A stretch of DNA of 64,000 nucleotides, from positions 1,281,348 through 1,345,347 of the forward strand of contig NC_017946.1 in NCBI RefSeq assembly GCF_000263735.1, read 5' to 3'. Position numbers and translations under genes: made by a program. Positions 3,322-54,180 of this stretch are shown one piece after another. The first letter of the stretch is position 1. Every line of letters starts with the position of its first letter. The notes beneath the pieces were generated by a model. The model saw only the letters and a list, made by a program, of their open reading frames with translations, was not told where the DNA came from and did no database searches. This DNA comes from Pyrococcus sp. ST04. Lineage in GTDB: Archaea; Methanobacteriota_B; Thermococci; Thermococcales; Thermococcaceae.

Positions 3322-3507
3322 TTCAACAAGAGTAGGAGACAAAACTTCATCCTCTCACACGTTTGGCGTTTCAATCACGTCATCAAACGGCTCAAAGAAG
3401 TCTCTGAAGAGTATGGCATTCGGGTTGTTGTGGATGTTGAGGCTTTCACTTCCAAAGCGGGCTTTAATGAAGCTCCTCAAACCTCCCCGTCAATGGTGAG
3501 GGGTTAA
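3322..3507 (+). pseudogene. tnpB remnant (IS605-type element), zinc-ribbon region deleted
   Basis: An open stretch ending in TAA 3505-3507 encodes the end of an IS605 TnpB. The parts are a helix resembling FILSHVWRFNHVIKRLKEV, then SEEYGIRVVVDVEAFTSK, the strand that normally leads into the TSxxCxxCG zinc ribbon. The text then jumps straight to GFNEAPQTSPSMVRG, which looks like the usual extreme C-terminus. All cysteines and the last catalytic region are missing, consistent with an in-frame internal deletion. Stops at 3304-3321 cut off everything upstream. The copy cannot encode a functional nuclease. Confidence 0.75.
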
Positions 3508-3547
3508 TTCGTTGGAACCCTCGCCCTTCAGGGCGGGGAGGAGGTCA
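3508..3547 (+). mobile_element. right end of an IS605-type element with terminal hairpin
   Basis: Directly after the tnpB stop, bases 3519-3540 form a strong hairpin: ccctcgccct pairs with agggcggggag across a two-base loop, with one G-T wobble. The reverse complement reads like the familiar IS200/IS605 end (tgacctcctccccgccctga), which the Y1 transposase recognises in active elements. No tnpA is present here, so this is an immobile relic. Confidence 0.7.
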
Positions 3548-3554
3548 GAGTAGG

Positions 3555-5973
<2,419 letters not shown>

Positions 5974-6286: not shown

Positions 6287-6343
6287 AAGGTCAGATACCC
6301 TAGGGCTCATCACAGCTCAGGTCTAGCGAACCTCATCATCCTA
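6287..6343 (-). ncRNA. C/D box sRNA (second of a tandem pair)
   Basis: The minus strand has box C atgatga (6339-6333), a 12-base guide ggttcgctagac shared up to box D' ctga (6320-6317), a 3-base spacer, box C' gtgatga (6313-6307), a 12-base guide gccctagggtat, and box D ctga (6294-6291). Both guides and the spacer have the canonical lengths. It starts about 26 bases after the gatE stop on the other side and lies 67 bases from the first sRNA, on the same strand, so both may share the gatE transcript or each have a promoter. Targets not assigned. Confidence 0.9.
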
Positions 6344-33230: not shown

Positions 33231-33289
33231 GAAGATGATGAAAACTCCCTGACCTGAAAAAAGATGATGAAGACCGGTTCACTGACTCT
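33231..33289 (+). ncRNA. C/D box sRNA overlapping the mbhN 3' end
   Basis: Plus strand: box C atgatga (33235-33241), 12-base guide aaactccctgac, box D' ctga (33254-33257), 6-base spacer, box C' atgatga (33264-33270), 11-base guide agaccggttca, box D ctga (33282-33285). All four boxes are canonical. Box D lies opposite the last sense codon of mbhN (stop complement at 33279-33281), so the sRNA is antisense to the end of that mRNA as well as a potential methylation guide. Targets not identified. Confidence 0.85.
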
Positions 33290-50332: not shown

Positions 50333-50342
50333 GTTTTTAAAG
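50333..50342. promoter_or_regulatory. divergent A/T promoter between HAD gene and ncRNA
   Basis: The tract gtttttaaag can act as TATA on both strands. On the minus strand it lies about 20-25 bases before the HAD start (50312). On the plus strand it is about 25 bases before 50362, where the GC-rich ncRNA begins. Confidence 0.5.
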
Positions 50343-50361
50343 TGAGTGTTTTAACTTGAAC

Positions 50362-50515
50362 TGACCGGAGCCGAGGAGATGAACCGAAACCGGCAACGGG
50401 AGTAGGCAATCCTTTGGCTCCGTAGGGGCGATGGCGCCCGCCCGGGGCAGCTTCGAGCCCGAACCGCCTCCCGTCGGGAGGCTGATGGCGCCTGTTCTGA
50501 GAACTTTCGGGAGGC
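50362..50515 (+). ncRNA. GC-rich structured ncRNA candidate (hgc-type)
   Basis: About 150 bases at roughly 65% GC in an otherwise A/T-rich genome. Perfect helices are visible: CGGAGCC/GGCTCCG (50366-50372 with 50416-50422) closing a large loop, GGGCG/CGCCC with an ATGG loop (50426-50439), GCCTCCC/GGGAGGC with a GTC loop (50466-50482), and GTTC/GAAC with a TGA loop (50494-50504). High-GC islands in Pyrococcus are known to encode ncRNAs (the hgc genes), several of which are H/ACA guides. I see no clear ACA box, so the class is open. It could also be the leader of the gene at 50522. Confidence 0.6.
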
Positions 50516-50521
50516 GAGAGT

Positions 50522-51385
50522 ATGGGCTCGAAGCTTGATGAACTCAGCAGATTTGTTAATGTTCAAAAGGTTTTGGAGTATCTAGAAAAAAGAAGGCATG
50601 AGGATGGAGGATACTGTTTCGTTTCCCAACTCGCAGATACCAATATAAACGACACATATTACGCAGTAAAGACATACTTACTCTTAGGTCTCGAAGTCCC
50701 AGAGAAAGAGAGGACAATAGAATTCCTATACAAATCCGCTCAGATGCAGACAGCAGCTGTCGGTGTAGCAATAGCCATTGAAGCCCTATCCCTCCTGGGG
50801 GCTAAGGATTTAGCCAGAGAGAAATTAGAACTACTATTTAAAAAGTACAACCCAACCGAGAACAAGTTCGCAGTTGGACTTGGTGGAAGTGAGGAATTTG
50901 GAACTGCAACCCCCCTAGAGGCTACTTATTGGGCCTCAAAGGCCATGAAGGCACTTAACTATAAGCCAACAAGGGAAATGAGTGAAAAGATGATTGAATT
51001 TATAAACAGCTTCAAAATGGGGGATGGCTTTGGAGTTGAACATCCAACAACAACAATGACGTATCAGGCAATATTCTCATTGAGATTTCTTGGCAAGAGA
51101 ATAGAAACGAAACACTTCGAAAAATGTGAGGTTTGTGGTGACTGGGGAGGATTCACTGAGGTGCCAAATTCTCTTCCCCCCTACATAGAACCAACATTTT
51201 ACGCTCTAAGGGGATTGGAGTTACTCGGCAAGAGGGCAACATGTGTCAGAAGGCATATAAGATTCATCAGATCACTGCAGAATCCAAATGGAGGTTTTAG
51301 AAGAAGCTACGAGCTTGGAATTTCAAATTTCCAGAACACATACAGAGCAATGGCCAGCTTGGAGGTTCTACTTAAATGGCTGTGA
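50522..51385 (+). CDS. prenyltransferase/squalene-cyclase-fold protein
   Basis: 287 residues with an (alpha/alpha) toroid pattern: repeats such as RRHEDGGYCFVS, EATYWASKAMKAL, GGFTEVPNSLPPYIEPTFYALRGLELL and LQNPNGGFRRSYELG, the QNxxGGF type seen in prenyltransferase beta subunits and terpene cyclases. The catalytic D-x-D-D of cyclases is absent, and the zinc ligands of protein prenyltransferases are not complete (KCEVCGDWGGF has a C-x2-C). The function is probably binding or a new transferase. ggaggcgagagt supplies the ribosome-binding site and lies at the end of the ncRNA region. First gene of a likely four-gene unit. Confidence 0.65.
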   Translation: MGSKLDELSRFVNVQKVLEYLEKRRHEDGGYCFVSQLADTNINDTYYAVKTYLLLGLEVPEKERTIEFLYKSAQMQTAAVGVAIAIEALSLLGAKDLAREKLELLFKKYNPTENKFAVGLGGSEEFGTATPLEATYWASKAMKALNYKPTREMSEKMIEFINSFKMGDGFGVEHPTTTMTYQAIFSLRFLGKRIETKHFEKCEVCGDWGGFTEVPNSLPPYIEPTFYALRGLELLGKRATCVRRHIRFIRSLQNPNGGFRRSYELGISNFQNTYRAMASLEVLLKWL

Positions 51386-54119: not shown

Positions 54120-54180
54120 CACCTCAGCCTACCGGTGTGCTCATCACCATTCAGATGAGGGGAAGGATCATCATCGAAGA
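54120..54180 (-). ncRNA. C/D box sRNA next to the fen start
   Basis: Minus strand: box C atgatga (54174-54168), 13-base guide tccttcccctcat, box D' ctga (54154-54151), 3-base spacer, box C' gtgatga (54147-54141), 13-base guide gcacaccggtagg, box D ctga (54127-54124). Box D ends 10 bases before the fen ATG (54114), so the sRNA and the mRNA leader overlap or are cotranscribed, and the sRNA would need processing from a common RNA. Targets not assigned. Confidence 0.88.

Follow-up and report, generated by a model that had tools for sequence, protein, structure and literature searches.

The window analyzed here is the whole stretch of 64,000 nucleotides from Pyrococcus sp. ST04, and the island and leader features described below lie on its plus strand. 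At positions 50362–50515 the GC content is 0.669, versus 0.42 in the window and 0.421 in the 500 nt on either side; this is the segment of 154 nt richest in GC, equaled by seven of 63,846 windows, all of which start at 50361–50367. The segment folds with −72.8 kcal/mol, none of 830 overlapping 154-nt tiles is as stable, and the three most stable tiles of the window all overlie this locus. When its letters are shuffled, 7 of 200 permutations reach an energy as low (z −2.03); by this measure the stability is only moderately unusual, so that the helices of the island need comparative support. A TATA-like element, TTTTTAAA, is located at 50334–50341, approximately 25 nt upstream, and from its spacing the start of transcription is predicted at about 50362–50366. 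The last position of the island, 50515, falls inside the Shine-Dalgarno stretch GGGAGGCG (50509–50516) of the gene starting at 50522; by sequence and duplex energies this stretch is a copy of the 3' strand of the helix P3 described below. Thus, the GC-rich island in an A/T-rich region, its own TATA-like element and its end at a ribosome-binding site, all noticed in an earlier sequence-only reading, are real.

The gene (50522–51385) opens with ATG GGC TCG AAG CTT, which is complementary to the leader, and encodes a 287-aa alpha/alpha-toroid (prenyltransferase-fold) protein (Pfam PF00432, E 1.3e-15). The AlphaFold2 model of this protein has a pLDDT of 89, and its best PDB matches are RabGGTase beta structures (TM about 0.7 by query, about 15% identity), while a sequence search found no close solved relative and a PHROG search gave no match. 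As modeled, the protein is a short toroid whose fold resembles that of the protein prenyltransferase beta subunit.

A whole-window Rfam scan (cmscan) identified a fluoride riboswitch aptamer (RF01734) at 50418–50501 with 41.3 bits, well over the gathering cut-off of 34, which gives a class to a structure previously described as having none. Its first stem GGCG/CGCC (50427–50430 with 50439–50442) is paired in 100% of cells in 48 distinct sequences, with one pair changed on both sides, and the pseudoknot (50433–50438 with 50487–50492) is likewise paired in 100% of cells, with one covarying pair (U-A to C-G). A hairpin recognized by sequence and duplex energies (50444–50460) is an insertion that separates the first stem from P3 (GCCTCCC/GGGAGGC, 50466–50472 with 50476–50482), the latter being supported by pairing, duplex energy and alignment analyses. 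Taken together, the 19 pairs of these four helices are formed in 99.3% of cells in the 48 distinct sequences, and six of them have changed on both sides, with none of 500 shuffles as good. Compensatory changes, on whose presence the sequence-only reading had staked the RNA, are therefore found in the aptamer helices, as they are in the 5' module described below. Judged by its sequence, 50418–50501 is a fluoride riboswitch aptamer, and it presumably binds fluoride. A k-turn is not supported for the two pieces earlier taken as k-turn-like: gctgatgg corresponds to the conserved aptamer motif CUGAUG, and ttctgaga to the linker that follows.

At E up to 0.001, 38 of 61 relatives have an aptamer match, which exceeds the cut-off in 36; for the phylum the figures are 92 and 88, respectively, of 115 genomes; in the Thermococcaceae, the family of the window's own genome, 33 of 37 genomes have one. 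Additional fluoride riboswitches were observed at L036, L224, L233 and L077 (genomes G018, G107, G069 and G058, respectively), the first three without the inserted hairpin; the gene downstream of all four presumably encodes a membrane subunit of a group 4 hydrogenase.

Each of the 33 aptamer-bearing Thermococcaceae genomes has an aptamer about 100 nt upstream of the same prenyltransferase-fold gene, which bears out the earlier suggestion of a cis-acting leader of this operon. A protein search for the same gene family yielded 18 loci (two of which, L203 and L204, duplicate genomes of the first set), and all 18 have the aptamer over the cut-off. The position of crcB differs between the genera: outside Pyrococcus, all 25 Thermococcaceae loci have it 1–4 kb downstream and in the same orientation, and it follows the prenyltransferase-fold gene in none of the eight Pyrococcus loci, so that the picture is mixed for location upstream of a fluoride-resistance gene, which is a mark of such riboswitches. 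In the window's genome crcB is about 57 kb away from the aptamer locus; the genome contains a single aptamer match and hence crcB there has none. One genome, G005, has lost both the aptamer and crcB and kept the prenyltransferase-fold gene, upstream of which the aptamer's tail can still be recognized. At this locus (L190, approximately 1450–1500) the aptamer is deleted, the tail GATGGCGCCTATTCT is left before the gene, and the genome gives no crcB match. In G013 the prenyltransferase-fold gene is broken and there is no aptamer match.

An earlier T. kodakarensis report states that the crcB RNA is transcribed and lies upstream of TK0513 rather than of crcB, and that crcB is transcribed from a separate start site (PMC4247193); the aptamer and this unusual location are thus already published, and, given that start site, riboswitch control of crcB itself seems doubtful. 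From the gene layout, TK0513 is probably the counterpart of the prenyltransferase-fold gene.

The inserted hairpin and P3 connect the aptamer with the start of the gene. The sequence AGCTTCGAGCCC (50449–50460), the 3' part of the inserted hairpin, is the exact reverse complement of GGGCTCGAAGCT (50524–50535) in the first codons, and CGCCTCCC of the P3 5' strand is complementary to the Shine-Dalgarno stretch. Complementarity of the inserted hairpin and the P3 5' strand to codons 2–5 and the Shine-Dalgarno sequence is found in all 33 loci, with a mean duplex energy of −37.4 kcal/mol, and one of 9,900 shuffles is as low. When the 18 protein-search loci were scored in the same way, the sequence pattern missed the aptamer in L196 and L198 and 16 loci were scorable: in ten of these at most one of 300 shuffles was as low, and in the other six about 4–27 of 300. 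When each leader is folded together with 45 nt of the coding sequence, the closed state has the minimum energy in the three leaders inspected. Opening the start site in 15 leaders costs 11–29 kcal/mol at 37 °C and 3.6–13.9 kcal/mol at 80 °C, and the high stability of the closed form at 37 °C is a point against the switch model.

Codons 2 and 3 read GGC TCG in 33 of 33 loci, and the codon entropy is zero at Gly2 and Ser3, as against 0.76–2.11 in 16 other conserved Gly columns and 0.98–2.31 in five other Ser columns. These codons are kept in all 46 distinct sequences with the canonical hairpin and in five of eight with an altered or missing hairpin, the other three being changed (Fisher p 0.0023 for 54 distinct sequences, relatedness ignored here as in the other counts). 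This count leaves out those sources, 18 of 85, that do not have this gene start (second riboswitches, crcB loci, outgroups and others). In G005 the GGC TCG codons are retained despite the deletion of the aptamer. The long-range helix pairs in 95.3% of cells, versus 29–48% for slid versions; all its changes are one-sided, and it does no better than column shuffles, so that its support is the complementarity together with the fixed synonymous sites. Each strand is also constrained by aptamer pairing or by coding, and this double constraint may explain the missing covariation.

Ahead of the aptamer, Pyrococcus leaders are about 60 nt longer: the distance from the TATA-like element to the aptamer is 84–91 nt in eight Pyrococcus leaders and 23–27 nt in 26 others. 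The additional segment (50366–50422 in the window) is a 5' module found in Pyrococcus leaders only, whose homology to the stem of an omegaRNA-like repeat is indicated by two models and whose helices show compensatory changes. It consists of a long outer stem, an internal loop, a GAAA/GAGUA internal loop and a CCG-GCAA-CGG hairpin with a GNRA loop; the fold of the alignment gives CCG-GNRA-CGG as the inner helix. In seven distinct sequences 95% of the cells of the module helices are paired and 21 cells have changed on both sides, which none of 500 shuffles equals. The same 8-mer TTTTTAAA is present in all eight Pyrococcus leaders, 45–51 nt ahead of the module core. Read by eye, the internal loop of the module is a possible K-turn, with tandem G.A pairs and a 3-nt bulge; in the window its 3' strand is without the needed G. 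Pairing of the module core with a P3 strand, also proposed by eye, was dropped because it is broken in G007.

A covariance model, R2, built from non-leader repeats only, matches the module at 50376–50420 (32.6 bits, E 7.6e-6 in the window), and a repeat profile matches at 50378–50410 (E 2.7e-7), covering only model positions 41–73 of 184. Among 48 loci (386 kb) R2 matches all eight Pyrococcus leaders and nothing else, and it gave no match in the 18 protein-search loci and G005. The module of the window and several repeats have 27 identical letters in one run. The pattern of the module core was found in 23 of 61 relatives, in up to nine copies, whereas the reversed pattern was found in none; the exact core gave no hit in viral contigs.

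The copies outside leaders are parts of a longer repeat, which typically ends with GGAGGTCAG followed by variable sequence; in 20 further repeat surroundings inspected, some repeats are truncated or degenerate. The repeat overlaps the 3' end of a tnpB reading frame in G002 and follows tnpB in G000 and G007; only three of 15 distinct tnpB loci tested have it downstream, one of them, an open frame, lying in the genome of the window, and this low count weighs against the reading of the module proposed below. The layout of the repeat is that of the omegaRNA (reRNA) of IS200/IS605 elements, which is located at the 3' end of tnpB and in which a guide comes after the scaffold. The leader module and the omegaRNA-like repeats have in common one stem and its 27-letter core, but the leader copy comprises the stem only, without tnpB, the scaffold end GGAGGTCAG or a guide, and is thus a relative of one omegaRNA part rather than an omegaRNA.

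We consider it highly probable that the island is the leader of the prenyltransferase-fold gene and acts as a translation-ON fluoride riboswitch, preceded in Pyrococcus by a 5' module captured from an omegaRNA-like element. The Pyrococcus transcript alone would start with the extra hairpin module before the aptamer. Without fluoride, one strand of the inserted hairpin and the P3 5' strand would pair with codons 2–5 and the Shine-Dalgarno sequence, and the two resulting helices, flanking the AUG, would block ribosome entry. Fluoride would stabilize the pseudoknotted aptamer, which would retain both strands and free the start site. As far as sequence can tell, translational control is the likely mechanism, with the leader hiding the start site by pairing.

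The sequence-only reading had also considered a separate structured non-coding RNA (hgc-type, a box C/D or H/ACA guide, or an L7Ae-binding RNA), and the high GC content of the island and its separate TATA-like element, within an AT-rich genome, would fit one. We regard this as extremely improbable, since the fluoride riboswitch is the only Rfam family over its cut-off at the island, the same scan detects three C/D RNAs elsewhere in the window, one gene follows at a conserved distance of about 100 nt, and the quoted motifs belong to the aptamer core and linker. The three other Rfam matches in this stretch at E up to 10 are all far below their own cut-offs; they include no hgc or H/ACA family, and the best C/D match has 9.8 bits versus a cut-off of 50. 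The Rfam and ARAGORN scans thus ruled out hgc, C/D, H/ACA and tRNA identities, and a suspected likeness to yybP-ykoY (GGGAGUAG) gave no Rfam match even at E 10. A fluoride riboswitch could instead act on transcription or RNA stability, with the complementarity to the start being incidental and codons 2–5 held constant by the needs of the protein or of efficient initiation. The retention of GGC TCG in five of eight altered-hairpin sequences and in G005, which has no aptamer, is in line with this, as is the long helix without covariation. We nevertheless find it quite unlikely: the fixed sites are synonymous, all 33 loci having the same codons for Gly2 and Ser3 while all other conserved Gly and Ser columns vary, a single one of the 9,900 shuffles pairs as well, and all three observed codon changes are within the altered-hairpin group.

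The homology of the module to the repeats, seen with R2 and in the 27-letter run, and the presence of a leader copy only in Pyrococcus argue that it would be a captured piece of the element. The module reads as a piece of the tnpB-associated repeat, apparently kept under selection in Pyrococcus; the simplest history would be capture at the base of this genus and retention since then as a 5'-terminal RNA structure, possibly for protection, insulation or protein binding. Alternatively, the likeness might reflect a common building block, a GNRA hairpin with a GAAA/AGUA internal loop recognized by a shared cellular protein, with no transposon origin, as could be expected from the outer stem sequences, which are unlike those of the repeats, and from the finding of no other repeat part near the leader. 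This alternative appears unlikely in view of the 27 identical letters shared by the window and several repeats: the core hairpin stem and tetraloop vary freely among other repeats, so that chance reinvention of the entire run is improbable; moreover, the repeats occur across the family and the leader copy in Pyrococcus only. Going beyond simple capture, the leader may be composite, the TnpB-omegaRNA stem having been retained for as long as the genus has existed and being bound by TnpB or another repeat-binding protein as a second input to the switch, which we mention as a speculative possibility.

Compared with the known fluoride riboswitch (crcB motif, RF01734), including the case of T. kodakarensis TK0513, the aptamer core, pseudoknot and P3 are the same, while the leader described here has the inserted hairpin complementary to the coding start and Pyrococcus leaders add the 5' module. 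To our knowledge, experiments exist for few natural archaeal riboswitches; a T. kodakarensis fluoride riboswitch is said to be among them (Speed et al. 2018). Our literature search found no paper joining a fluoride riboswitch with a prenyltransferase, and none joining TnpB, Pyrococcus and reRNA. Within the literature searched, the leader module and the fixed start codons may be new. The T. kodakarensis switch presumably regulates translation according to PMC8241225, and Phok et al. 2011 (PMC3124441) list the P. abyssi crcB element as a candidate. The same study describes the P. abyssi RNAs sRk48 and sRk52 as repetitive, conserved in Thermococcales and related to orfB/tnpB 3' ends (PMC3124441), in all of which they are like the omegaRNA-like repeats. 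Identity of the two is not supported: the coordinates published there, read in G001 (taken as P. abyssi), miss the repeat profile.

These observations pose the questions whether an archaeal switch hides a start codon with a strand borrowed from its aptamer, why a prenyltransferase-fold protein would be under fluoride control even where the gene of the crcB exporter is elsewhere, and whether parts of a mobile-element guide RNA can become a host regulatory RNA.

Several other structured RNAs were observed. The three C/D RNAs that exceed the cut-off (box C/D, RF00095) are located at window positions 6288–6342, 33231–33288 and 54121–54178. At 3340–3557 of the window, a broken tnpB-like fragment, recognized by eye, runs into the 3' half of the omegaRNA-like repeat described above (profile E 1.3e-21); this region directly precedes an open frame at 3555 and belongs to the group of folds that come next in stability in the window. 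In the repeats L163–L168 a short loop replaces the GNRA hairpin of the stem shared with the module, and the hairpin is thus optional in the mobile elements. Finally, at L095, L111 and L179 (G014 and G034) a degenerate omegaRNA-like copy is the leader of a downstream gene, which we take to encode ribosomal protein L10e, and may represent a second capture.
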